Of a DNA stretch of 64,000 nt, positions 4,918 through 50,673 are shown piece after piece (position 1 is the stretch's first letter; every line of letters starts with the position of its first letter). The notes under the pieces are model-generated. The model was not told the DNA's origin. It worked only from the letters and a program-made list of their open reading frames with translations, and did no database searches. The position numbers and the translations under genes are program-made. Source of the DNA: Nitratidesulfovibrio sp. SRB-5 (GTDB lineage: Bacteria > Desulfobacterota > Desulfovibrionia > Desulfovibrionales > Desulfovibrionaceae); the NCBI RefSeq assembly GCF_019931275.1, contig NZ_JAIOTY010000003.1, positions 62,001 to 126,000 of the forward strand, in the 5' to 3' direction.

Positions 4918-5076
4918 CTACTTCCTGCGGCGGCGTTCCAGGGTGATGCCCGCCAGAAACCCGCCGATCATGCCCACGCCGAAGGCGCGGGGAATGCTGT
5001 CGCTAAGGCCCAGCAGCGCCGCGAACACGCCGAGGGAACCGCCGATGAGGATGCCGCGAACGATGTAGCTGTCCAT
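4918..5076 (-). CDS. Small membrane protein, 52 residues
   Basis: A short leftward gene with ATG at 5074-5076 and AAGGA five bases upstream, ending in TAG at 4918. The product starts MDSYIVRGILIGG, has two hydrophobic stretches separated by SDSIPRAFGVGM, and ends in a cationic tail ERRRRK, giving a likely two-segment inner-membrane protein with both ends cytoplasmic. No family is recognised. Good ribosome binding site, amphipathic layout and basic tail argue that it is real. Confidence 0.7.
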   Translation of the reverse strand: MDSYIVRGILIGGSLGVFAALLGLSDSIPRAFGVGMIGGFLAGITLERRRRK

Positions 5077-5430
5077 GCCTGTCCTTCTGGGGCTGTGGGA
5101 ATTTGCGGGCTAAAGCTCCGGCAGCGTGCGGACGCCCCGGAATCCCGCGTGATGGTAGTCGCGCGGGGCGAGCGGTGTCAACGTGACCGAGGGACCGAGA
5201 GACCGAGGCACGGGGGCACGGAGGGACCGGGGCGCAACGGCGCGACACGGCGAATCCGGCAGGCCGCGGGCAGGGGGAAGCGACGCGCGCGAACATCACC
5301 GGGTCGATACCGTCCCCAAAGATACTGGCGGGCTGCTGCCAGCCCGCCATCTTGCCACATGACGGGGTGCCTGCCCTTCCGTGTATCCGGACACCAGCCG
5401 TTCCACCCGCCCGGCGGCCCGCCACCGCCA

Positions 5431-5462
5431 AAAACAGAACCCCGGCCACGGTGGCCGGGGTT
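5431..5462 (-). terminator. Orphan minus-strand terminator
   Basis: A 12-bp perfect stem AACCCCGGCCAC / GTGGCCGGGGTT (5438-5462) followed on the minus strand by CTGTTTTTGG. This is a good intrinsic terminator reading leftward, yet no coding sequence lies upstream of it on that strand for about 1.4 kb. Confidence 0.65.
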
Positions 5463-6022
5463 CCGCAAGGGGGTCGGATGTCCAAGACTGCAAGGGGGGA
5501 ACAAGGCTGGGGGTCCAAGGGGGGGCGGCGGGTGGGCTGTCCCGCCGCCCCTGCGGTCACTGCATCAACGAAGGAGGAGTTTGGGCTGGTCGCTGTCTCG
5601 TGTGCTTTGGGCACTATGTCTTCGGTCGCCGTGGCGGCCGCTGGTCGCTTCCGGGGGCTCCAAGCCCCCGGCTGGAGATACCGTGCGGACAGGAGGAGGT
5701 CGGTCCTGCACAGTGCGGGTGCGTTGCGGCTGTGTGCCGGTGCTCCCGTATCGCTTCGGTCGTCCGGGCCGTCGCCTTGGCCCGGCGGCCGTTGCCGCGA
5801 ATTCATTGCCCGTGCCCTTCTCCGCGAGGGGGAACCGGAGAGGGGCCAGGAGCGGTGGGGGAACGGGACGCCACACGTCCACCGTATCCGCGAAGGGTCT
5901 CGCGGAGTTCCCCTGCCGCCCGGAACGTGCCGGGCCGCACGTGGGGGTTGCCTTCGGGCGCCTCGTCCCTTGCGTGTTCCTGTTCCGTCCCGCGTCTCCA
6001 CCGTAGTGCCCGGGGAGGGGGG

Positions 6023-6052
6023 GACCGCCGCGACCGGCGGGTCGCGGCGGTC
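6023..6052. repeat. Perfect 12-bp GC hairpin
   Basis: GACCGCCGCGAC and its exact complement separated by 6 bases. It has no T-tract and is followed by short direct repeats of TCAGGGGAA, so its role is unknown. Confidence 0.6.
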
Positions 6053-6120
6053 AGGGGAATCAGGGGAATCAGGCTAGGGCTTGCACTCTGCGAAGGGCAG
6101 CGTTGTCATGCGCTGAAGGA

Positions 6121-6260
6121 GAATTAGCACAGGGCGTGCCAAACGATGAAAACACATATTTTCAGCGTGTTATGATTTTTCGAGAAAATGTGCAGACTTT
6201 TGTTGTGCAACGCTATGCACATGTTTTTTGCACAAACGGGCTGCACGTGTGCAAAATGCA
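6121..6260. promoter_or_regulatory. AT-rich island with clustered TGCACA-core sites
   Basis: About 140 bases much richer in AT than the surroundings. Five TGCACA/TGTGCA cores lie at 6189-6194, 6204-6209, 6216-6221, 6229-6234 and 6248-6253. Read as nonamers, CTATGCACA (6213-6221), TTTTGCACA (6226-6234) and TTTTGCACA on the minus strand (6248-6256) are each one base from the DnaA-box consensus TTATNCACA. TGAAAA / TTTTCA (6147-6164) forms a further dyad. No gene start is adjacent: the nearest gene ends at 6520 on the minus strand. It may be a DnaA-titration or regulatory site, or a remnant. Confidence 0.4.
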
Positions 6261-6441
6261 TACACCCCGCCAGCCTTGCGCATGTGCCCGCGACGGACGT
6301 GACCGGCTTGCGCAACCCGCCTGCCCACGGCATCGACACGGGGAGCGTCTCGCTGGAGGCACGGGAGGCCCGCTTGCGCGTTGCACTGCGCACGCCGCCC
6401 TCCTTGCGGCACCATGTCCCCTCCCCACGCGAAACGAACGC

Positions 6442-6473
6442 AGCCGGAAAGGGAGCATGCTCCCTTTCCGGCT
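6442..6473 (-). terminator. 32-bp perfect palindrome, probable terminator of the DUF523 gene
   Basis: The 16-bp arm AGCCGGAAAGGGAGCA is followed at once by its exact complement, 47 bases past the stop codon of the leftward gene. The inner TGCA would form the loop. Minus-strand bases after it (GCGTTCGTTTCG) contain some T but no continuous tract. Confidence 0.6.
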
Positions 6474-6519
6474 ATGAAAGTTCCGTGCCCGGCGCACCCG
6501 GCGCGCCATTCGGAACGGA

Positions 6520-6942
6520 CTATTCGTCGCAGCGCACCGTGATGCCCGCCGCGCGCAGGGCATCGGCGAACAGGCCGTCGCCCGCCACCAGCGTCCGCGT
6601 GAAGGTGCCGTCGTAGATGCGCCCGCACCCGCACGAGGGCGAGCGCGCCTTCAGGATGGCCTCGGTGCAGCCCGCCAACAGGGCTAGGCGCACGCCTTCC
6701 TCGGCGCCCCTGACAAAGGCGTCCGTGGCGTCGGACAGGGTTCCGTCGGCCTCGCGGCACAGCACCTTGCCGTCGCGCAGTTCGCACGGCGGTCGCGGCG
6801 TGGGCAACCCGCCCAGTTGTTCCGGACAGACCGGCAGGGCCAGCCCTTGCCGCACCAGTTCGATGACCCCCTCGCGGGGGTTGGCCTCTCCGTCGAAGCG
6901 GCAGGCCACGCCCGCCAGACAGGCGCTGACCACGTAGATCAT
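6520..6942 (-). CDS. DUF523 protein, TudS-like [4Fe-4S] family
   Basis: 140 residues. It shows the family motifs SACLAGVACRFDG at the N-terminus, CPEQLGGLPTPRPP in the middle and ARSPSCGCG near residue 100. Cys8, Cys39 and Cys104 sit where the three cluster ligands of the thiouracil desulfurase TudS (a DUF523 member) are expected, so a [4Fe-4S]-dependent desulfuration of thiolated pyrimidines is plausible. The start at 6942 (MIYVVSACLAG) has GGAGG six bases upstream; longer forms add only non-conserved sequence. It lies 330 bases downstream of the acyltransferase gene in the same direction. Function by family only; activity is an inference. Confidence 0.85.
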   Translation of the reverse strand: MIYVVSACLAGVACRFDGEANPREGVIELVRQGLALPVCPEQLGGLPTPRPPCELRDGKVLCREADGTLSDATDAFVRGAEEGVRLALLAGCTEAILKARSPSCGCGRIYDGTFTRTLVAGDGLFADALRAAGITVRCDE

Positions 6943-28930: not shown

Positions 28931-30046
28931 CTAATTCAGGAAGGTATCCACGGAAACGTAGTCCAGGCCAAAGGCCTCGGCCACGCCCTTGAAGGTGATC
29001 TTGCCGTCGATGACGTTGGCGCCCTTGGCGATTTCGCAGCTGTCCTGCATGGCGCGCTTCCAGCCCTTGTTGGCGATGGTCAGCGCGTAGGGCAGGGTGG
29101 CGTTGGTCAGGGCCAGGGTAGAGGTCTTGGCCACCGCGCCGGGCATGTTAGCCACGCAGTAGTGCACCACGCCGTCCACCACGAAGGTGGGGTCGGTATG
29201 GGTGGTGGCCTTCGAGGTTTCGAAGCAGCCGCCCTGGTCGATGGCCACGTCCACCATCACGGCGCCCTTCTTCATGGTCTTCAGCATGTCGCGGGTGACC
29301 AGCTTGGGGGCCTTGGCGCCGGTAACCAGCACCGCGCCCACCACCACGTCGGCCTCGCGCACCAGCTTGCGCACGGTGGCCGGGGAAGACATGAGCGGGA
29401 AGCAGTTGGAGGGCATCACTTCGCTGAGGTGGCGCAGGCGGTCCAGGTTCATGTCCAGGATGTACACCTTGGCGCCCAGGCCGCAGGCCATGCGGGCCGC
29501 ATGGGTGCCCACCACGCCGCCGCCGATGACCACCACGGTGCCGGGGTCCACGCCGGGCACGCCGCCCAGCAGCACGCCGTTGCCGCCCTGGGCCATTTCC
29601 AGGTACTTGGCGCCCTGCTGGATGGCCATGCGGCCAGCCACTTCGCTCATGGGGGTGAGCAGGGGCAGGCTGCCGTCGGCCTTCTGGATGGTTTCGTAGG
29701 CGATGCACACCGCGCCGCTCTTGATCAGGGCCTGGGTCTGCGGTTCGTCGGCGGCAAGGTGCAGGTAGGTGAACACGATCTGGCCGGGGCGGATCATGCC
29801 GTATTCGGACGCCTGCGGCTCCTTGACGTGCATGACCATGTCGGACTTGGCGTAAATTTCGGCCGGGGTGGCCACGATGGTGGCGCCCGCTTCCACGTAG
29901 GCTTCGTCGGCAAAGCCGCTGCCCGCACCGGCGTTCTTTTCCACCAGCAGGGTGTGCCCGGCGTGCACCATCACCTCGACCCCGGCGGGGGTCATGGCGA
30001 CGCGGTTTTCTTCCTTCTTGATCTCCTTCAGGATGCCAACGATCAT
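28931..30046 (-). CDS. ald: Alanine dehydrogenase
   Basis: 371 residues, exactly the usual length. The N-terminus [20 protein letters not shown] is diagnostic, as are the NAD-binding [14 protein letters not shown] (about residues 168-181) and the substrate region with [10 protein letters not shown]. It converts L-alanine to pyruvate and ammonia with NAD+, reversible, giving sulfate reducers a way to use alanine or to fix ammonia. The start at 30046 has GGAGG six bases upstream. A near-perfect sigma-54 promoter lies about 100 bases upstream, and a sigma-54 activator gene precedes it, so it is likely induced by amino acids through that activator. Confidence 0.97.
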
Positions 30047-30148: not shown

Positions 30149-30164
30149 AGCAAACGCCTTGCCA
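30149..30164 (-). promoter_or_regulatory. Sigma-54 promoter of ald
   Basis: On the minus strand TGGCAAGGCGTTTGCT matches the -24/-12 consensus TGGCACGrNNNTTGCW at every defined position but one. It lies about 100 bases before the ald start codon. Confidence 0.85.
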
Positions 30165-30222
30165 ACTTGCCGGAAAATCGGACGAAACGCCGAAATTTCC
30201 GGGCGAGTCACAAAAACGCAAA

Positions 30223-30422
30223 TCGGACCAGTGAGTTGCGTGTGCAAAAAGAAGAGGGGCAGGGAAGGGGAACGGCGGGGAATGGAAGCGGCACGGCCAG
30301 GCATCGCACCCAAAGTGGAAATAAATCAGACCACTGTTCAAATAAACAGCGCATAAAACCCGAAATGATGCCGCAGGGAGCGTGGAAACATTTCGGACCG
30401 CTGGTAAGTTTTCAGACCATTC
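30223..30422. promoter_or_regulatory. Candidate activator sites upstream of ald (TCRGACC motif)
   Basis: Four same-strand copies of TCRGACC: TCGGACCAGTG (30223), TCAGACCACTG (30326), TCGGACCGCTG (30393) and TCAGACCATTC (30412, overlapping the activator gene end). They lie 60-270 bases upstream of the sigma-54 promoter, the normal range for enhancer-like sites. CTGTT / AACAG (30334-30349) and CCGAAATG / CATTTCGG (30360-30396) are further dyads. Confidence 0.5.
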
Positions 30423-32208
30423 TCAAACCATGCCGCCGCAGCTTGTCGAGCAGGGCGGTATGGGAAATTCCAAGCTTTCTCGCCGCCTTGCGCACACTGC
30501 CTGCGGCGGCCACGGCATCGACGATGATCCGTTTTTCAAAAACGGCAATCATGTCCTTGAGCCGCCCCTCGCCATCCCCATGATGCTCGTGGCCAGAGGC
30601 CAGCGCCGCCGCATCGGCCACGGTATCGGCCACGCCGTCGGCCAGCCGGGCCGACTCGCCGAACAGCCCGCCTTCCAGCTCGTGGGCAAACAGGATGAAC
30701 CGCGCACCCACCGCATCGTCCGGGCACAGGATGGCGGCGCGTTCCACCACGTTCTTCAGTTCGCGCACGTTGCCCGGCCAGTGGTGGCCCGCAAGGCGCG
30801 CCAGCGCCCCCGGCGAAAGGGTGCGCACCGGCCCGCCCAGCCGGGCGGCCAGCCCCAGCAGAAAGTGCTCGGCCAGCACGGCGATGTCCTCGGGCCGTTC
30901 CTTCAGCGGCGGAATGTGAATGGGCAACACGTTGATGCGGTAGTACAGGTCCTGCCGGAAGCGCCCTTCCTCCACCAGCCGCTCCAGGGTGCGGTTGGTG
31001 GCGGTGATGATGCGCACGTCCACGGGCACCTCCGCCGTGCCGCCCACCCGGCGCACGCTGCCCTCCTGCATCACCCGCAACATCTTGGCCTGCGAGGCCA
31101 GCGGCATGTCGCCTATCTCGTCCAGCAGCACCGTGCCGCCGCGCGCCGTCTCGAACAGGCCGGGCTTGCCCTCGCGCCGCCCGCCGGTGAAGGCTCCGGC
31201 CTCGTAGCCGAACAGCTCGCTTTCCAGCAGCTGTTCCGGCAAGGCCGCGCAGTTCACCGGCACGAACGGCCCCTGCCGCCCGCTGGCGGTGTGGATGGCC
31301 CGCGCGAACAGCTCCTTGCCGGTGCCGCTTTCACCCCGGATGGCGATGATGGAATCGGCGGCGGCCACGCGCCGGGCAAACGAAATGGCAAAGCCGATGG
31401 CCGGGTGCTGGCCCACGATGTCGCCGAAGGTCACCTGCGCGGGCTCGGTGATGGAGCGGGCCAGCTTGCGGATTTCGCGCATGTCGCGGGCCACTTCCAC
31501 CGCGCCGATGATGCGCCCTTCGCCGTCGCGGATGGGCCTGCGGGTGACAAAGAATTGCAGCCGCCCGCCGCCCGGGGTGGCCACCTCGCGCTTGGCGTCC
31601 ACCAGTTCGCGCCCGGACAGGCAATCCAGGATGCCCCGGTCGGGCAGGCCCAGTGCGTCCAGCGGCAGGCCGGACAGGTCGGCGGCGGGGGTGCCGCCCG
31701 GCGAGCCCGATGTACCGGACACGCCCGGTGCCCCGGCACACCCGTAGGCCTCGCGGGCCACCTTGTTGATGGAGGTCACCCGCCCCTCGGCGTCGATGGA
31801 CAGCACCCCGTCGCGCAGGTTGTCCAGCAGCACCAGAAAGCGGTTGGCGCGCTCCTCGGCGGGCAGGGTGTCCACGATGCGGAATTCCAGCAGATCGGGG
31901 ATGCGGCCCAGCGTCTCGAACAGGGCGGCGCGGTCCACGTCGCGCGAGCTGTCCGCCTCCAGGTACACGAAGGCGCGGTCCATGCCGGGCGCAGGGGCGT
32001 GAGCCGGGGCAGGGACCGGAGAGGGGGCGGAAGCCGGGCCGGGGGTCAGGCCGGAAATGGCGCACGTGGAGGGGGTGGCCGCCGCACCGCCGGGGCGGCG
32101 CTCCACTTCCATGGAGACGATGGACAGCGCCTGCCCGGCCAGCAGCGAGGAAAGGTCGGACACGATGCCCACCCGGTCTCGAAAGATGCATTCCATTCGT
32201 AGTTTCAT
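30412..32208 (-). CDS. TyrR-like sigma-54 activator with ACT and PAS domains
   Basis: 598 residues. N-terminal ACT domain (MKLRMECIFRDRVGIVSDL), which binds amino acids in TyrR, with an Ala/Pro-rich insert; PAS domain at about 120-235; AAA+ domain with Walker A GESGTGKE (about residue 291), Walker B GGTVLLDEIGD and [11 protein letters not shown]-terminal helix-turn-helix ending KLGISHTALLDKLRRHG. The sigma-54 contact loop reads GAFTGG instead of GAFTGA, so the last residue is altered. It lies directly upstream of ald in the same direction and probably activates it in response to an amino acid. The start at 32208 matches the TyrR N-terminus but has only a weak ribosome binding site. Confidence 0.9.
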   Translation of the reverse strand: MKLRMECIFRDRVGIVSDLSSLLAGQALSIVSMEVERRPGGAAATPSTCAISGLTPGPASAPSPVPAPAHAPAPGMDRAFVYLEADSSRDVDRAALFETLGRIPDLLEFRIVDTLPAEERANRFLVLLDNLRDGVLSIDAEGRVTSINKVAREAYGCAGAPGVSGTSGSPGGTPAADLSGLPLDALGLPDRGILDCLSGRELVDAKREVATPGGGRLQFFVTRRPIRDGEGRIIGAVEVARDMREIRKLARSITEPAQVTFGDIVGQHPAIGFAISFARRVAAADSIIAIRGESGTGKELFARAIHTASGRQGPFVPVNCAALPEQLLESELFGYEAGAFTGGRREGKPGLFETARGGTVLLDEIGDMPLASQAKMLRVMQEGSVRRVGGTAEVPVDVRIITATNRTLERLVEEGRFRQDLYYRINVLPIHIPPLKERPEDIAVLAEHFLLGLAARLGGPVRTLSPGALARLAGHHWPGNVRELKNVVERAAILCPDDAVGARFILFAHELEGGLFGESARLADGVADTVADAAALASGHEHHGDGEGRLKDMIAVFEKRIIVDAVAAAGSVRKAARKLGISHTALLDKLRRHGLRMV

Positions 32209-35567: not shown

Positions 35568-37010
35568 CTACTCCAGATCGTACTTCTTCAGTTTGTTGTG
35601 CAGGGTGGCGCGGGTGATGCCCAGACGGCGCGCGGCCTCGCTCTTGTTGTCGCCGGTTTCGCGCAGGGTGGCGATGATGGCCCGGCGTTCCAGATCCTCC
35701 AGCGACAGCCCGGCATAGGGGGCCAGCCCGTCGCCGTCGGCGGTGGCGTTCCCCGCACCCGCCCCGGCGTTTGCACCGCTTCCGCTGTCTCCGCCGCTTC
35801 CGGCAGTCCCGTTCCCTCCGCCTCCGAAATGCAGCGGCAGTTCGCGCTCGGTCACGTAGTCGCCGGTGGCCAGAATCACGGCGCGCTCGATGGCGTTTTC
35901 CAGTTCGCGCACGTTGCCCGGCCAGTCGTGGCGCAGCAGCATATCCATGGCCTGCGGGGTGAACCCCTTGAGGTGCTTGCGGTTCTTTTCGGTGTACCGA
36001 TCCAGGAAGAACGCGGCCAGCAGGGGCACGTCGCCCGCGCGCTCGCGCAGGGCGGGCACGTGCACGGCAATGACGTTGAGCCGGTAGTACAGGTCTTCCC
36101 TGAACCGCCCCGCCGCCGCCTCTTCGCGCAAGTCTCGGTTGGTGGCGGCAATGACCCGCACGTCCACGGTGAGCGGCGTGTCGCTGCCCACCCGCTGCAC
36201 CTCGCCCTGTTGCAGGGCGCGCAGCAGTTTTGCCTGCAACGTCAGGGGCATTTCGCCTATCTCGTCCAGAAACAGGGTGCCGCCGTCGGCCTGCACGAAG
36301 CGCCCTTCGCGCCGCCGGTCGGCCCCGGTGAAGGCCCCGCGCTCGTGGCCGAACAGTTCCGATTCCAGCAGGGTTTCGGTCAGCGCGGCGCAGTTCACGG
36401 TGACCAGCGGACGGCTGCTCCGGTGACTGGCCGCGTGCAGGGCGCGGGCCACCAGTTCCTTGCCGGTGCCCGATTCGCCTGTAATGAGCACGGTGGCCTC
36501 GGACGGGGCCACCGTGGCGATCATCTCCACCAGTTCGTGCATGGGCGCGCTGCGACCGATGATGCCGTGCGGCGCGCCCGGCGCCCCCGCCCCACCCTGC
36601 GACGACAGCCGCTCGCGCAGTTCGCGGTTTTCGCTGGCCAGGCGGGTGTGATCCAGCGCCCGTTCCAAGGTGTGGCGCAGCACGTCGAAATCCAGCGGCT
36701 TGATCAGGTAGTCGTAGGCCCCGGTGCGCAGTGCCTCCACGGCGGTATCCACCGACGAGAAGGCCGTCATGATCAGCACGGGCGTGGCCGGGTTCCAGTC
36801 CAGGATGTGGTGCAGCGCCGCTATGCCGTCCATGCGGGCCATGCGCACGTCCATGAGCACGGCGTCCCAGGCGCGCTGGCGCACCTTGTCCACGGCGGAA
36901 TCGCCGTCGTCGGCCTCTTCGGTGGCGTAGCCCCAGCCGCGCAACATGGTGCGCAGCATGGAGCGGTGCGCCGCGTCGTCGTCCACGATGAGGATGGTGG
37001 CGGTGCTCAT
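35568..37010 (-). CDS. zraR: ZraR-like sigma-54 response regulator
   Basis: 480 residues. Receiver domain with phospho-acceptor Asp54 ([12 protein letters not shown]); AAA+ domain with GESGTGKE, an intact GAFTGA loop and [13 protein letters not shown]; a Gly/Ser-rich linker (about residues 400-430); C-terminal Fis-type helix-turn-helix ending [13 protein letters not shown]. Phosphorylated dimers assemble into hexamers that activate sigma-54 promoters. It overlaps zraS by ATGA and is the partner of that kinase. The divergent zraP gene has a perfect sigma-54 promoter and is the obvious target. Confidence 0.93.
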
Positions 37011-39250
37011 GGCTTGTCATCCTTTGCGGGATTGCCGACCCGGGTTGAAGCTGCGCGCGCGCCGGATGTCGAGGACGCACCGGATGCGGAGGGCGCGGCG
37101 GGGGATGCCGCCGGGGCGGTGGCGGAAGCGGCATCATCCGCGCCGGGGCCTGCCGCGTCCTGCGCGTGCCCCTGCCCCGTCGCCTGCTCGGCGGGCAGCA
37201 GAAAGGTGATCTCCGTGCCCTGACCGAGGGCGGACCGCAGCGAAACCTCGCCGCCGTGAGCCTCCACGATCTTGTGCACGATGGCGAGGCCGAGGCCCGT
37301 GCCCTGACTTTTGGTGGTGAAATAGGGGTCGAAGATGGTGGCCAGATGCTCCGGCGCGATGCCGGTGCCCGTGTCGCGCACCGCAACCGCAATGCGGTTG
37401 CCCGGCGCGGCGGCAAGGCGCACGGACAGCTCCCCGCCGCTCGGCATGGCCTCCAGCGCGTTCAGGAACACATTGAGCAGCGCCTGCGAGAAGCGGTCCG
37501 GGTCCAGAAGCGCGCGGGGCAGGCTGCCGACCGCGCCGTCCTGCGCACCGGCCAGTGCATTGTCCGGGACACCTTCCGGGGCGCCGTCGGGCTCCACCCG
37601 CACGGTCACGCCCCGGTGGGCGGCGTCCTGCCGCACCAGCCGCAGCACGTGGTGCACCAGGAATCCGGCGTCCACCGGGCGGGGGGCGATGTCCGAGGGC
37701 CGGGCCAGCCCGATGAGGTCGGAGATGACCCGGTTCAGCCGTTCCACCTCCTGCACCATCACCCGCGCCGCCTCGCGGTCTTCGCTGCCCTCGTCGAAGC
37801 GGCTGCCGAAATAGGTGGCGTAGCCCTTGATGGAGCTGAGCGGGTTGCGCAGCTCGTGGGCCACCCCGGCGGCCAGGCTGCCGATGGCGGCCAGCTTTTC
37901 ACGGCGGCGCACCTCGTCTTGCAGGCGGCGCACCTCGCGCAGGTCGCGCAGGATCAGGATGGCCCCGGCATCGGCGGCATCCCCGGCGGCAATGCGCACC
38001 CCGCGCACGCTCATGGGCACGGGCGGGCCGCCCACCACGGGGCAGTCCAGGGTCACCTCCGCCCCCAGGGACGGGGCGGCATCGGCGTCCCCGCCGTCCG
38101 GCGCACCGCCGGTCAACCGCCCGGCCAGCTCCGCCAGCGGGGCGGGCAGCACCGCTTCCGGCGCGGCCCCGGCGGGCACCGCACCGCCCAGACGCAACAG
38201 GTCGCGCGCCGCCGCGTTGCAGGTGGCCACGCGGCCCGCGCCGTCCAGCACCACCAGCCCGTCGGGCAGGCTGGTGACCACGTGCAGGGCGAAGGACTGG
38301 GCCTGCCGCACCAGCCGCCGCGAGGCGCGGGCATGGCGCGACCACAGCAGCGAAAGCACACCGGCCCCGCCCAGCAGGGCCAGAATGGACAGCATGACCA
38401 GGGTATGCTGGCGGTCGGACGCGCGGGCCGCATCGAAGGGGGCCGTGTCCAGCGCCACGATGATGACCGGGGGCGGGGCGTCGCGCTCGGCCAGCGTGTC
38501 GGCCTCCATCTCGCGGCGCAGCCAGCCGGGCATGGACCCCATGCCGGATTCCGGGCTGCGCATGCCGTGGCCCATCATGTGGCCGCCCATGCCCATATGG
38601 CGCGCCGTGGGCCGCAAGGGAATGAAGGTGCGGTACACCAGAAAGGCGCGCTGGCCGCCCGCCTCCATCAGCCGCCAGCCTACCTCGTCGCGGGGTTGCT
38701 GGCGCACGTCCCCCCCATCGCGCCCATCGCGCCCGTCGCGCCCGTCGCGCCCCAAAGGAGCGGGCGGCGGGGGCACGGCCAGGGCCTCCATGGTGGCCGG
38801 GTCGGCCAGGGAGCGGCCAACCCACTGCGGGTCGCTGTGGGCCAGCACCACGCCCTGCCTGTCGGTGACGGCGATGAACTGGATGTCCGGCTGGTCGGCC
38901 ATTTCCTCCAGCAATATCTGCAAGCGCAGCTCGCCCCCGGTGCGCCCGCGCAGGCCGGTGCGCGCACCGGCCTCGAAGGCCCGGATCAGCGAAGCGCCCT
39001 TTTCGGACAGGATGCGGCGCATGGATTCCTGCTCGCCATCATGGTTCAGCACGGTAAGCACGGCCAGCACCAGGGCCAGGGCAACCGTGGCCCCGATGAT
39101 CAGCCACGGCGAGGGCAGGCTTTCACCCCCGCCCCGACGGCCGCCGCGCCCGCCACGCCCGAACAGGCCAGATTGGCCCTCGCGTGCGGCAGGCGGGGCC
39201 GCGTCCGTGCTGTCCGTCCTGATCGTATTGCTTGCGTTGTCCTTCGGCAT
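37007..39250 (-). CDS. zraS: ZraS-like sensor histidine kinase with Met/His-rich periplasmic loop
   Basis: 747 residues. One membrane segment at about 48-68, a periplasmic domain to about 278, a second segment, then PAS, HisKA with HELRNPLSS (His about 463) and HATPase with NALEAMP, DTGTGIAP and GTGLGLAI. The periplasmic domain holds a Met/Gly/His-rich stretch (HMGMGGHMMGHGM, about residues 217-229) resembling the tail of the divergent ZraP, plus an Arg-Asp-Gly repeat from a 9-nt array. The start at 39250 has AAGGAA eight bases upstream. ZraS kinases sense envelope metal stress and phosphorylate ZraR. The last 50 residues are Ala/Ser-rich and unconserved. Confidence 0.9.
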   Translation of the reverse strand: MPKDNASNTIRTDSTDAAPPAAREGQSGLFGRGGRGGRRGGGESLPSPWLIIGATVALALVLAVLTVLNHDGEQESMRRILSEKGASLIRAFEAGARTGLRGRTGGELRLQILLEEMADQPDIQFIAVTDRQGVVLAHSDPQWVGRSLADPATMEALAVPPPPAPLGRDGRDGRDGRDGGDVRQQPRDEVGWRLMEAGGQRAFLVYRTFIPLRPTARHMGMGGHMMGHGMRSPESGMGSMPGWLRREMEADTLAERDAPPPVIIVALDTAPFDAARASDRQHTLVMLSILALLGGAGVLSLLWSRHARASRRLVRQAQSFALHVVTSLPDGLVVLDGAGRVATCNAAARDLLRLGGAVPAGAAPEAVLPAPLAELAGRLTGGAPDGGDADAAPSLGAEVTLDCPVVGGPPVPMSVRGVRIAAGDAADAGAILILRDLREVRRLQDEVRRREKLAAIGSLAAGVAHELRNPLSSIKGYATYFGSRFDEGSEDREAARVMVQEVERLNRVISDLIGLARPSDIAPRPVDAGFLVHHVLRLVRQDAAHRGVTVRVEPDGAPEGVPDNALAGAQDGAVGSLPRALLDPDRFSQALLNVFLNALEAMPSGGELSVRLAAAPGNRIAVAVRDTGTGIAPEHLATIFDPYFTTKSQGTGLGLAIVHKIVEAHGGEVSLRSALGQGTEITFLLPAEQATGQGHAQDAAGPGADDAASATAPAASPAAPSASGASSTSGARAASTRVGNPAKDDKP

Positions 39251-39420
39251 GGAAAGTTTCCTTGCGGTGCGCGGTACCCGCCGGGGGCGGGGTGTTCGAA
39301 TCCGCGACACCTGTTCGATTTTCATACGCCATCCCGAGGGTAGCGTATAGTTTTTATACATCTGATCGGTTTTCGTGCAGGCCTTGCGGGGGCCTTCCGG
39401 GTGCGGAAAATGAAATTTCA
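39251..39420. promoter_or_regulatory. Upstream activator region between zraS and zraP
   Basis: AT-richer than its surroundings. Two dyads suit binding by the response regulator: GTATA / TATAC with a 5-nt spacer (39345-39359) and the 10-bp palindrome TGAAATTTCA (39411-39420). They lie 40-115 bases upstream of the sigma-54 promoter. No sigma-54 site facing zraS was found. Confidence 0.5.
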
Positions 39421-39459
39421 ACCTTCAATCACGGCATGTTACACGCATATTCCGCGCCT

Positions 39460-39475
39460 TGGCACGCCGGTTGCT
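39460..39475 (+). promoter_or_regulatory. Perfect sigma-54 promoter of zraP
   Basis: TGGCACGCCGGTTGCT fits the -24/-12 consensus TGGCACGrNNNTTGCW at all strongly conserved positions, 121 bases before the zraP ATG. A TTTT tract follows the -12 element. Confidence 0.93.
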
Positions 39476-39596: not shown

Positions 39597-40136
39597 ATGA
39601 AGACCAAGCATCTCGTCCTCGGCACCGTCGCCCTCGCGGGCCTGCTCGCCATCACCGGCATCACCGACAGCGCCTTTGCCCGCATGGGCGGCATGGGCGG
39701 CATGGGCGGCCGCTGCGCCACCGGCGCGGTGTACAACTCCCTGACCCCGGAAAAGCAGGCCAAGTACGACGCCATATACAAGGAAGCGGACGCCCGCATC
39801 CAGCCGCTGAAGGACAAGGCCTGGGCCAAGCACACCGAACTGAACGCCCTGTCCGGCAACCCCAACACCAAGCCGGAAGCCATTTCCAAGCTGACGGGCG
39901 AACTGTCCGACCTGCGCACCCAGATCCGCAAGGAATACACCGCCCTTGACGAACGCCTGGAAAAGGAAGTGGGCGTCAACCCCGGTTATGGCCGCATGGG
40001 CCACATGGGCATGGGCGGCGGCATGATGGGTGGCCACGGCATGGGTCATGGTGGCATGGGTGGCGGCATGATGGGCGGCCAGGGCATGGGCCACGGCCCC
40101 ATGCATGACGGCCAGACGCCCCAGTCCAACCAGTAG
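39597..40136 (+). CDS. zraP: ZraP-like periplasmic metal-binding chaperone
   Basis: 179 residues. Signal peptide (MKTKHLVLGTVALAGLLAI, cleavage after AFA), a helical core with LTPEKQAKYDAIYKEAD and repeated Leu-spaced helices (about residues 50-125), and a C-terminal 45-residue tail made of Met, His and Gly (GHMGMGGGMMGGHGMGHGG in part). ZraP oligomers bind zinc and protect periplasmic proteins, and in E. coli ZraP also represses ZraSR signalling. The Met-rich tail suggests that Cu(I) or Ag(I) could also bind, an inference. The start has AGGAG nine bases upstream. A terminator follows. Confidence 0.9.
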   Translation: MKTKHLVLGTVALAGLLAITGITDSAFARMGGMGGMGGRCATGAVYNSLTPEKQAKYDAIYKEADARIQPLKDKAWAKHTELNALSGNPNTKPEAISKLTGELSDLRTQIRKEYTALDERLEKEVGVNPGYGRMGHMGMGGGMMGGHGMGHGGMGGGMMGGQGMGHGPMHDGQTPQSNQ

Positions 40137-47136: not shown

Positions 47137-49848
47137 ATGTCCAGCAAGCCTTCACGCCCCGCATCCGGCCCCAAGGGTGCCGCCGCCACGGCCAAGCGCC
47201 CGGCAGGCAAGAAAAAATCCGGCAAGCCCGATACGGGCGACGCCCCCCGCTCGCGCGGGCGTGACGACCAGCAGTCTCGCCCGGCCCGCCCGACCCGTAA
47301 GGACAGAGACGCACAGGCCGAACGCGAAGACCGCCCCACCCGCCCCCGTCGTCCGCAGCAGGAAGACGGTCAGGACACGAAAAAGCCCGCCGGTCCGCGC
47401 GGCGGCAAGCGGCCCGGCGGTCCGCAGGGTGGCCAGCAGGGCAAGCCGTCCGACCGACAGTCCGGCAAACCGTCGGGCAAACGCTCCGGCAAGCGGGACA
47501 ACGACGACTGGACCACTGATCCTCGTGGCGGGGACCGTCGTGATGGGGATCGTCGCCACGACAGGCGTGATGACCGGCGCGATGACAGGCGTGATGATCG
47601 GCGCGATGACCGGCGTGATGACAGGCGTGATGACCGTTCCGGCCCCCGCGCGGAACGTCCCGCGCGCCCCGCGCGTTCGGGCAATGCGCCCCAGTCCGCA
47701 GGCAGGGCCGACGAATTCGTGGACAACCGCGCCCCGGAACGCGAACACCACCGCACCCGCCTGAGCGATGCGGAACTGGCGGAACTGCTGCCCCCCAGCG
47801 TGTCCGCCGGGGCCGCCGCATCCGGCAGCGCCGCGCCTGACCATGCGGACAACCTGCGCACTCCCGAAATCCTTGCCCCGGCGGGCGACATGCAGGCCGC
47901 GCTGGCCGCATTCGCCGCCGGTGCCGACGCGGTGTACCTTGGCCTGAAGCACTTTTCGGCCCGCATGCAGGCGGAAAACTTCTCCACCGGCGAACTGGCC
48001 GCGCTGACGGACCTGGCCCATTCCGAGGGCCGCCGCATCTACGTGGCCATGAACTCCATGCTGAAACCCGGCGACCCCGGCGCCGCTGGCCGTCTGGTGG
48101 CCCGCCTGGCCCGCGACGTGCGGCCCGACGCGCTCATCGTGCAGGATCTCGGCATGCTGGACATCGCCCGGCAGGCCGGGTTCACGGGTGAACTGCACCT
48201 GTCCACGCTGGCCAACGTTACCCACCCCGCCGCGCTCACCGTGGCGCGCGACCTGGGCGCCAGCCGGGTGATCCTGCCGCGCGAGCTGAACATCGACGAA
48301 ATCCGCGCCTGCGGGGCTGCCTGCCCGGACGATCTGGACCTTGAATTCTTCGTGCACGGGGCGCTGTGCTACTGCGTGTCGGGCCGCTGCTACTGGTCCA
48401 GCTACATGGGCGGCAAAAGCGGCCTGCGGGGCCGCTGCGTGCAGCCGTGCCGCCGCGTGTACCGCCAGAAGGGCCGCGAGGGGCGCTTCTTCTCCTGTCT
48501 CGACCTTTCGCTGGACGTGCTGGCCAAGACCCTGCTGTCGGTGCCGCACATGGCCTCGTGGAAGATCGAGGGCCGCAAGAAGGGGCCGCACTACGTGTAC
48601 TACGCGGTGTCGGCCTACCGCCTGCTGCGCGACAATCCGGACGACCCCAAGGCCCGCAAGCAGGCCGAGGACATCCTTGAAATGGCGCTGGGCCGTCCCG
48701 GCACCCATTCGCGCTTTCTGCCCCAGCGCGGCGACGACCCCACCGCCCCCGGCGAGCAGACCAGTTCCGGCCTGCTGGCTGGCAAGGTGGGCCAGACCCC
48801 GGAAGGGGGCATCTTCTTCAAGCCGCGCTTCGCACTGCTGCCGCAGGACCTGCTGCGCATCGGGTACGAGGACGAATCGTGGCACACCACCCTGCCGGTG
48901 GCCCGCCACATCCCCAAGGCAGGCACCTTCAACCTGCGCCTGCCGCGCCACAAGACGCCCAAGCTGGGCACGCCGGTGTTCCTCATCGACCGCCGCGAGC
49001 CGGAACTGACGCGAGAGGTGCGCAGCTGGCAGGCCAAGCTGGAACGCCACCGCAGGGGCGGCGGCGAAGGCGGCGCGGTGGACTTCACCCCCACCTATCC
49101 CGCCCCCGGCAAGTCCGCCCGCCCGCTGGACGTGATCCTGCGCGGCTCGCTGCCGCATGGCCGCGAGGGCAAGGCCGGGGTACGCCCCGGCACGGTGATG
49201 GGCCTGTGGCTGTCGCCCAAGGCCCTGCGCGAGGTGTCGCGCACGCTGTACCCGCGCATCTCGTGGTGGCTGCCGCCGGTGATCTGGCCGGACGAGGAAG
49301 CCCAGTGGCTGCGCATGGCCCGCGAATCCGTCCGCGACGGCGCGCGCCACTTCGTGCTCAACGCCCCGTGGCAGGTCGGCCTGTTCGGCGATGCGCACGC
49401 CCGGCGCGACCTGGTGCTGACCGCCGGTCCGTTCTGCAACACCTCCAACCCGGCGGCGCTGGCCGTGCTGCGCAAGCTGGGCTTTGCCGCCGCCATCGTC
49501 AGCCCCGAACTGCCCGGAGAAGACATCCTGGCCCTGCCGCGCCAAAGCTGCCTGCCGCTGGGCGTGGTGCTGTCCGGCTACTGGCCCATGGGCGTCACCC
49601 GCCACCACCTGGAGGGGCTGAAGCCGGGCGAGCCGTTCAACAGCCCCAAGAACGAGGTGTTCTGGGCCCGGCGCTACGGACAGAATACCTGGATATACCC
49701 CGGCTGGCCGCTGGACATCGAGGACCGCCGGGGCCAGCTGGAAGCCGCCGGGTACACCCTGTTCGTGCGCATCGACGAGCACCCGCCCCTGACCGTGCCC
49801 GAGCCGCGCAGGACCAGTCCGTTCAACTGGGACATTCCGCTGCTGTAA
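47137..49848 (+). CDS. U32-family protein (RlhA-like) with long basic N-terminal tail
   Basis: 903 residues. Residues 1-240 are hydrophilic and rich in Arg, Lys, Asp, Gly and Pro, with six DDRR-type repeats from a 12-nt array; this looks disordered and nucleic-acid binding. The conserved part starts at TPEILAPAGDMQAALAAF and includes the U32 signature region with the Cys cluster (ALCYCVSGRCYWSS, RGRCVQPCRR). U32 proteins such as RlhA and TrhP hydroxylate rRNA or tRNA bases using an iron-sulfur cluster. RNA modification is therefore the likely role and the basic tail fits it. The start has GGAGA eight bases upstream. A very strong terminator follows. Confidence 0.85.
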   Translation: MSSKPSRPASGPKGAAATAKRPAGKKKSGKPDTGDAPRSRGRDDQQSRPARPTRKDRDAQAEREDRPTRPRRPQQEDGQDTKKPAGPRGGKRPGGPQGGQQGKPSDRQSGKPSGKRSGKRDNDDWTTDPRGGDRRDGDRRHDRRDDRRDDRRDDRRDDRRDDRRDDRSGPRAERPARPARSGNAPQSAGRADEFVDNRAPEREHHRTRLSDAELAELLPPSVSAGAAASGSAAPDHADNLRTPEILAPAGDMQAALAAFAAGADAVYLGLKHFSARMQAENFSTGELAALTDLAHSEGRRIYVAMNSMLKPGDPGAAGRLVARLARDVRPDALIVQDLGMLDIARQAGFTGELHLSTLANVTHPAALTVARDLGASRVILPRELNIDEIRACGAACPDDLDLEFFVHGALCYCVSGRCYWSSYMGGKSGLRGRCVQPCRRVYRQKGREGRFFSCLDLSLDVLAKTLLSVPHMASWKIEGRKKGPHYVYYAVSAYRLLRDNPDDPKARKQAEDILEMALGRPGTHSRFLPQRGDDPTAPGEQTSSGLLAGKVGQTPEGGIFFKPRFALLPQDLLRIGYEDESWHTTLPVARHIPKAGTFNLRLPRHKTPKLGTPVFLIDRREPELTREVRSWQAKLERHRRGGGEGGAVDFTPTYPAPGKSARPLDVILRGSLPHGREGKAGVRPGTVMGLWLSPKALREVSRTLYPRISWWLPPVIWPDEEAQWLRMARESVRDGARHFVLNAPWQVGLFGDAHARRDLVLTAGPFCNTSNPAALAVLRKLGFAAAIVSPELPGEDILALPRQSCLPLGVVLSGYWPMGVTRHHLEGLKPGEPFNSPKNEVFWARRYGQNTWIYPGWPLDIEDRRGQLEAAGYTLFVRIDEHPPLTVPEPRRTSPFNWDIPLL
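47569..47640 (+). repeat. 12-nt tandem array, six units
   Basis: Six units of GATGAYMGGCGY in a row, coding for Asp-Asp-Arg-Arg repeats in the tail of the U32-family protein. The last unit (GATGACCGTTCC) is diverged. Confidence 0.88.
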
Positions 49849-49872
49849 GCCGCATCGCTCTTTCGCCAGACC

Positions 49873-49916
49873 GCATAAAAAAGACGCCCCCTGCCGTGGG
49901 GGCGTCTTTTTTATGC
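49873..49916. terminator. Very strong bidirectional terminator
   Basis: Arms of 19 perfect base pairs, starting GCATAAAAAAGACGCCCCC, around the loop TGCCGT, with A6 before and T6 after the GC core. Confidence 0.95.
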
Positions 49917-49942
49917 GCGCAAGCACTTCGCCCGGGCCATCT

Positions 49943-50089
49943 GGGCCTGCCAACGCTATGAGGATTTTTGTTCTCTGCCAAGGAAGGATGGTTTTTTTAT
50001 GGAGAGAGTATACTCTTTCGTATTCGACCGGAATAAAAAATCACCCTGACGCTGGCAGAGGGCAAAAAGACCAGAGCGTTGGCAGGCCC
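49943..50089. repeat. 147-bp AT-rich element with inverted termini (MITE-like)
   Basis: Perfect 15-bp terminal inverted repeats GGGCCTGCCAACGCT (49943-49957) and its complement (50075-50089). Inside, CTCTGCCA (49973-49980) pairs with TGGCAGAG (50053-50060) about the same centre, and T-tracts also mirror each other, so the arms are about 65 bases and largely complementary. A 12-bp palindrome AGAGTATACTCT sits near the middle (50005-50016). AT content is far above the neighbours. It ends at the last base of the next gene's stop codon. No clear target duplication was seen. Confidence 0.6.
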
Positions 50090-50673
50090 TACCCGAACAG
50101 CCGCGTCAAATGCGCCCGGTACCGTTCGCAGTCTTCCTCGATGCGCGGGTTCTTGACCACATCATGGCTGCAGAAGGTTTGCAGCGGCGTCATGCCGAAA
50201 AACCGGAAGTTCATGTGCGCGGGAAAGAACAGGTCGTCCACGGTCTTGCCGCCGAACAGGTACTGCCCCGCATCGCCAAAGGCCTCGGCGGGCGCGTTGA
50301 AGGTCAGCGAGAGCATGTACTGCCTGCCATGCAGCGCCCCGCCCGAACCGTACTGCCGCTCCGGCGCGGAGCGGCTGCGGCCGTCGCCCTTGCACAGCCT
50401 GCCGTCGGTACCGGCGGAATAGACCTGGTCCATGTACCTCTTGCAGCTCCACGCAAAGCCCATCCAGTTCACCGGCGACTGCACGATGATCCTGTCCGCC
50501 CACAGGTGGCGGTCTACTTCCGCCGCCACGTCGTAAGGCTTGCTGGTTTCGGTCACCTGCACGGCGTGGCCCAGACCTTCCAGCGTGGTGCGGGCCAGTT
50601 CCACCAGATGTCGGTTCAGTGCGCCGGGCGAATGGGGATAGGGCTCGTGCCCGTTGATGATCAGGACGTTCAT
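50089..50673 (-). CDS. MdaB-like NAD(P)H:quinone reductase
   Basis: 194 residues, flavodoxin-like fold. The N-terminus MNVLIINGHEPYPHSPGALN binds FAD phosphate, and IVQSPVNWMGFAWSCKRYMDQV is the family flavin region; the C-terminal third contains FRFFGMTPLQTFCSHDV. MdaB reduces quinones by two electrons and protects against oxidants. The start at 50673 has GAGG five bases upstream. Its stop codon touches the inverted-repeat element, so transcription may end in that element. A lone gene, no partner is visible. Confidence 0.9.
   Translation of the reverse strand: MNVLIINGHEPYPHSPGALNRHLVELARTTLEGLGHAVQVTETSKPYDVAAEVDRHLWADRIIVQSPVNWMGFAWSCKRYMDQVYSAGTDGRLCKGDGRSRSAPERQYGSGGALHGRQYMLSLTFNAPAEAFGDAGQYLFGGKTVDDLFFPAHMNFRFFGMTPLQTFCSHDVVKNPRIEEDCERYRAHLTRLFG

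Follow-up and report, generated by a model that had tools for sequence, protein, structure and literature searches.

CrcZ and Qrr are sigma-54-dependent regulatory RNAs that are made under an activator protein; they are shorter than the RNA considered here and are tied to Hfq. In RNAIII of S. aureus, C-rich loops can pair with Shine-Dalgarno sequences. In D. vulgaris Hildenborough, DVU1419 is listed as acting on its own operon, on DVU0036, and on one ncRNA upstream of DVU3282 (PMC4641369 Table 1). For the same regulon, an 18-bp motif is reported in a figure legend of PMC3333781, whose abbreviations name HK, RR, and Hpt. In these passages of the two papers, the ncRNA upstream of DVU3282 is given only as "ncRNA" and is uncharacterised. 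The locus that we compare with these systems is an AT-rich island in a Nitratidesulfovibrio genome, which, judging from its sequence and that of its relatives, is very probably the region from which a long conserved noncoding RNA, encoded on the minus strand, is controlled through sigma-54 (Table 1).

Table 1 Features of the AT-rich island and of the putative RNA gene that it faces (positions in the window; minus-sign distances are relative to the putative transcription start)
Feature	Position	Strand	Remarks
Distal activator site TTTTGCACACGTGCAG...TTTGTGCAAA (putative)	6227–6256 (about −141 to −112)	minus	nearly invariant in the 8-genome alignment
Central activator palindrome TGTGCA-N6-TGCACA, 18 bp (putative)	6204–6221 (about −106 to −89)	minus	present in 8/8 genus genomes
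Proximal half-site TCTGCACATTTTC (putative)	6184–6196 (about −81 to −69)	minus	conserved apart from single-base differences among the aligned genomes
Candidate sigma-54 (−24/−12) promoter TTGGCACGCCCTGTGCT	6126–6142	minus	12/13 consensus positions; conserved in 8/8 genus genomes
Putative noncoding RNA gene, about 690 nt	5430–6115	minus	conserved in 8/8 genus genomes; noncoding pattern of substitutions and gaps; fold stability
GACCUCCUCC segment, anti-Shine-Dalgarno-like, in a predicted hairpin loop	5691–5701	minus	ten bases invariant in 8/8 genomes
Second CUCCUCC segment ACUCCUCCUUC	5570–5580	minus	invariant in 8/8 genomes; partly paired in the consensus fold
Closing helix, 3′ strand (predicted)	5557–5570	minus	predicted to pair with 6101–6116 (first 16 bases of the RNA); pairs invariant in 8/8 genomes
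GC-rich hairpin past the closed domain (predicted)	5522–5551	minus	inverted repeat I11; helix 24, invariant
Intrinsic-terminator-like hairpin with a T run	5430–5463	minus	13-bp perfect arms (I6); helix 25, two pairs changed on both sides

The GC content of the window, i.e., the whole stretch of 64 kb that was analysed, is 69.5%, while that of positions 6141–6262 is 38.5%, and no other 120-base stretches in the 64 kb are as poor in GC as those at this island. The description given in the first-pass annotation was reproduced: the patch is AT-rich, it contains inverted repeats beside the cores, and five TGCACA/TGTGCA cores are packed within 65 bases (6189–6253), three of them differing from TTATNCACA by one mismatch. 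The clustering of these cores is unusual, while their total number is not: the window contains 27 of them as compared with a mean of 40.6 in the shuffled sequences, and a second stretch of about 95 bases with five cores was not found in the 64 kb.

In the same annotation, the cores were read as DnaA boxes forming a titration site, an origin, or a replication control site. The three one-mismatch nonamers and the low GC content are what such a site would offer. However, an exact TTATNCACA box does not occur, and the one-mismatch matches in the window are four (the three in the island included) against a shuffled mean of 8.66, so that near-exact boxes are not found above chance. The GC skew, which had been proposed as a check for an origin, shows no turn at the island within the window. 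Moreover, the cores belong to longer palindromes that recur upstream of an operon for a histidine kinase (the sensor kinase) and an NtrC-family regulator, and their distance from the candidate sigma-54 promoter is typical of an enhancer. The DnaA reading is thus unsupported and can be regarded as extremely improbable. In a distant blastn search of positions 5400–6520 against 72,556 plasmids, no match was obtained.

When the window was scored on both strands with the familiar sigma-54 consensus, only three sites reached at least 11 of the 13 positions, and one of them is the island element, in which GG and GC are twelve bases apart and the −12 element has one mismatch. Of the other two, one (39459–39475, plus strand, 13/13) precedes a ZraP-like ORF (about 39598–40136), with a ZraS-like kinase located divergently at 37007–39421, and the other (30149–30165, minus strand, 12/13) precedes an alanine dehydrogenase-like ORF (start at 30046), beside which a sigma-54 activator-like ORF is located (30412–32208, minus strand); all these names were given by eye from the translations. 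Since alanine dehydrogenase is a described sigma-54 target in D. vulgaris, according to a passage of PMC4641369, the scan is considered to be a fair guide.

The five cores constitute three conserved sites, which extend from about −141 to −69 relative to the putative start. The sites of enhancer-binding proteins are usually located roughly 70 to 150 bases upstream of the start, and the palindromic sites expected of an enhancer-dependent sigma-54 promoter are indeed present upstream of the island promoter. The motif cluster is kept in all eight Nitratidesulfovibrio genomes, among which little or no variation is seen in the promoter, in the arms of the palindrome, or in the first 25 bases of the RNA. 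This conservation, which had been named as a check, supports the suggestion that the island is regulatory, and one part of the refuting outcome given in the annotation was therefore not observed. The claim that no gene is transcribed away from it nearby overlooks the minus strand, on which the candidate promoter faces a conserved noncoding block. The idea that a lost gene left the island behind as a regulatory remnant is at odds with this downstream block, and the island probably gives rise to a transcript, though not to that of a protein gene.

Many regulators use dyad-symmetric sites, and the TGTGCA palindromes presumably bear some likeness to the operators of CRP/FNR or Rex. The palindromes might accordingly serve another dimeric regulator of the CRP/FNR or Rex type, whose target would be a sigma-70 promoter or a transcript of the plus strand, with the sigma-54 match arising by chance. 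The terminator scan labelled both the palindrome and the promoter terminator-like, and the palindrome with the T's that follow it on the plus strand could be taken in favor of this explanation. Against it, no sigma-70-like site was seen in the island by the hexamer scan, the second locus bearing the sites encodes a sigma-54 activator, and the sigma-54 element is kept in 8/8 genomes, whereas the T run is not conserved among the eight, which also makes a plus-strand terminator at the palindrome unlikely. On balance, this explanation is improbable, and the sigma-54 reading of the island is followed below.

A clue to the activator was found in the genus-wide distribution of the sites. The palindrome TGTGCA-N6-TGCACA occurs at 19 places in the eight genomes: eight are the island promoter, six are the promoter of the histidine kinase, and five are elsewhere. 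These last five, which are possibly extra targets or chance occurrences, are located on contigs C11 (two), C13, and C21 of G003 and at C8:41133 of G006. A sharper marker is the 13-mer at the core of the distal site, which occurs at only 14 places in the genus, namely, eight at the island and six at the kinase promoter; in the kinase promoter of the present genome, the 13-mer differs by one base, and the kinase promoter of G004 was not recovered. Among the other 280 genomes of the family, the 13-mer is present in eight. When seven kinase promoters were aligned, TTGGCACG was found to be common to them, and the −12 element was poor (TTTTC replaces TTGC).

In the present genome, the kinase and its regulator are located on contig 1, near 1.48 Mb. 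The kinase carries HisKA, HATPase_c, and PAS domains, and the gene that follows encodes the NtrC-family regulator with receiver, Sigma54_activat, and HTH_8 (Fis-type) domains; a TPR gene and an Hpt gene come next. Within the genus, this operon and the RNA have the putative activator site in common at their promoters. A presumably self-regulated kinase/regulator pair with the same site as the RNA promoter is the simplest candidate for the activator, and the kinase-paired response regulator is likely to be the controller of the island.

The kinase promoters of other genera were also compared. In a second genus (G165–G174, 10 genomes), the kinase-upstream regions were fetched from all genomes except G169, and all nine contain an element resembling a sigma-54 promoter, TGGCA...CTTTTTC, as well as the palindrome when one of its end bases is relaxed; in G169, the palindrome is absent from the regulator contig. 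In the other 11 of the 20 fetched regions, which come from other genera, no such element was seen by the scan; one of these regions (L174) stops short of the kinase start, and another (G021) has a near-palindrome and TTTGGCACG, as judged by eye. With regard to an analogous RNA in the second genus, none of the nine palindrome loci checked (of 30) has a sigma-54 match by the strict pattern. Finally, a scan of the contig collection for the exact 18-mer gave 12 stretches, of which five belong to this genus and seven to unrelated records; the latter consist of 18–25 bases around the 18-mer with short chance matches.

We then consider the block that the island promoter faces. The block, together with the promoter and the sites, is found in all eight Nitratidesulfovibrio genomes, always flanked by a PF04463 gene (2-thiouracil desulfurase family) and a 52-codon ORF. 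In the comparison with five genomes in 60-nt bins, the identity is 0.90–1.00 over the core (5940–5521) and 0.77–0.87 over the 5′ part of the RNA, whose two final bins have values of 0.80 and 0.65; the values are 0.80–0.89 in the neighboring upstream protein gene and 0.29–0.65 in nine spacer bins. Since the core is better conserved than the adjoining protein gene and the RNA has one of the only two recurrent regulator sites in the genus, the RNA is probably a main output of its presumed two-component system.

Two observations concern the neighboring genes. One is that the 52-codon ORF (MDSYIVRGILIGG..., 4918–5076, minus strand), which follows the RNA on its strand in 8/8 genomes, has a protein that is 98–100% identical among them; its product looks like a small membrane protein, and the ORF may correspond to the gene that, in other species, has the noncoding RNA "upstream of" it. 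Another is that a perfect 32-base palindrome at 6442–6473, which was listed by the terminator scan, probably serves the minus-strand PF04463 gene as its terminator. The hairpin at the 3′ end of the RNA (5463–5430) was absent from the list of the same scan; its T run was read by eye on the minus strand and is shorter in several genomes.

GC-rich DNA has long stop-free frames, and in every one of the eight genomes an antisense frame stays open for 600 bases, which might be taken to mean that the conserved block encodes a protein. Such an open antisense frame, however, can happen at 70% GC. The variable columns are distributed evenly among the codon phases (16/16/15 in alignment columns 205–606), and 35 of the 45 gap runs have lengths that are not divisible by three. 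Thus, the pattern of the block is not a coding one, and, because of the frame-breaking gaps, the same-numbered frames are not homologous throughout. In addition, the best-looking ATG on the minus strand (chosen by eye) is ACG in G004. A protein product is accordingly very improbable, and the block is treated below as a noncoding RNA gene.

No homologue of the block was detected in the 280 other genomes of the family, where blastn matches outside the genus were short (49 query bases at most) and confined to eight genomes, and where a covariance model of 169 positions of the 3′ part gave no hit under strict filters. Rfam 15 yielded no match at the gathering score, and six matches, all far below that score, were obtained in a permissive scan. 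A tRNA was not found by ARAGORN.

A closed domain with several hairpins is predicted for the RNA. For the 5′ domain (536–568 nt), the z values of the fold in the eight genomes were −1.85 to −4.99 as compared with dinucleotide shuffles (30 each), while 24 control stretches gave a mean of −0.68 (sd 1.23); one control, at about 49703–50262, reached −4.64 and folds as well as the RNA. In a separate run for the present genome, z was −2.93, and none of 100 shuffles was as low. The antisense strand gave −2.1 to −2.7 in three genomes. The consensus fold consists of 189 pairs with 98.4% of the cells paired. Changes on both sides were found in seven of the 189 pairs against a shuffled mean of 2.9, a number reached by none of 500 shuffles. 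The support from covariation is nevertheless modest, since the further pair types are not above the shuffles (432 of 500 were as high) and most pairs never vary. For the predicted closing helix, whose pairs are the same in every genome, covariation is neither supportive nor contradictory.

The CCUCCUCC segment of the predicted domain is invariant in 8/8 genomes, and the bases on either side of GACCUCCUCC differ in G003 while the segment itself stays unchanged. Helix 6, which partly pairs ACUCCUCCUUC, is broken in some genomes. Our best guess for the function, drawn from analogy, is a translation regulator similar to RNAIII, and it is conceivable, though we hold it tentatively, that the RNA acts after transcription by offering its anti-Shine-Dalgarno (CCUCCUCC) segments to target mRNAs. 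The invariance in the domain of about 560 nt, however, covers long stretches, not the loops alone. The 11-base complement of the loop was found at 11 places, of which seven are the RNA gene itself and four are others, as compared with 37 for the reversed control. Because long stretches beyond the loop are invariant and its full complement is rare elsewhere, the simple pairing model is weakened.

The same two observations favor another explanation, in which the noncoding RNA is real but binds a protein or is part of a ribonucleoprotein instead of pairing with mRNAs. It is opposed by the invariance of the CCUCCUCC segment next to bases that change in one genome. In the version in which the RNA would titrate CsrA, it is further weakened because a GGA-rich stretch (columns about 120–160, by eye) is among the least conserved parts. 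The chance of this explanation comes close to even, and a protein-binding role is about as likely as a pairing role. In the present genome, no match to PF17209 (Hfq) was found, while the same search was positive in 5 of 14 reference genomes. A bolder proposal, which we regard as speculative and rather unlikely, would place the RNA in a new class of regulatory RNAs: large (about 690 nt), structured by itself, made on demand by a two-component system via sigma-54, and carrying conserved segments that imitate the anti-Shine-Dalgarno tail of 16S rRNA, so that it would regulate translation broadly in a bacterium without a detectable Hfq.

The mechanism that we propose for the island is as follows. 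A two-component activator of the NtrC type, most likely the kinase-paired regulator, would bind the palindrome and the half-sites about 70–140 bases upstream, and the bound activator would contact the sigma-54 RNA polymerase across the AT-rich DNA, presumably by looping. Transcription would start near 6115 and stop near 5430, and the product, about 690 nt in length, would be structured and remain untranslated. This RNA may then present its anti-Shine-Dalgarno (CCUCCUCC) segments to target mRNAs, exerting a post-transcriptional effect.

If this is the case, a group of sulfate-reducing bacteria has at this locus an unusually long noncoding RNA that is highly conserved, and with it post-transcriptional control in sulfate reducers could be put to the test in a genome without a detected Hfq gene. 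The likeness to CrcZ and Qrr is that they, too, are noncoding RNA genes with sigma-54 promoters and an activator; the island RNA differs from them in its length of about 690 nt, in the genome without a detected Hfq, and in having no Rfam gathering score. In S. aureus, RNAIII (PMC2837412) is likewise a long multi-hairpin RNA under a two-component system, and would be similar in the way it works, but it belongs to another phylum and has another promoter type, and no sequence relation is claimed. With the DVU1419 regulon, as far as the published description in the above passages goes, the likeness is that a sigma-54 regulon of a two-component response regulator has its own operon and a noncoding RNA as targets. 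The motif reported there and the palindrome found here are both 18 bp in length, and Hpt is named in that source, while an Hpt gene follows the kinase operon here. The island RNA is perhaps a homologue of the ncRNA controlled by DVU1418-1419 in D. vulgaris, a strong lead in which the two are set side by side by description only; such a relationship would supply the "ncRNA" of PMC4641369 Table 1 with a sequence, a structural prediction, and a regulator.
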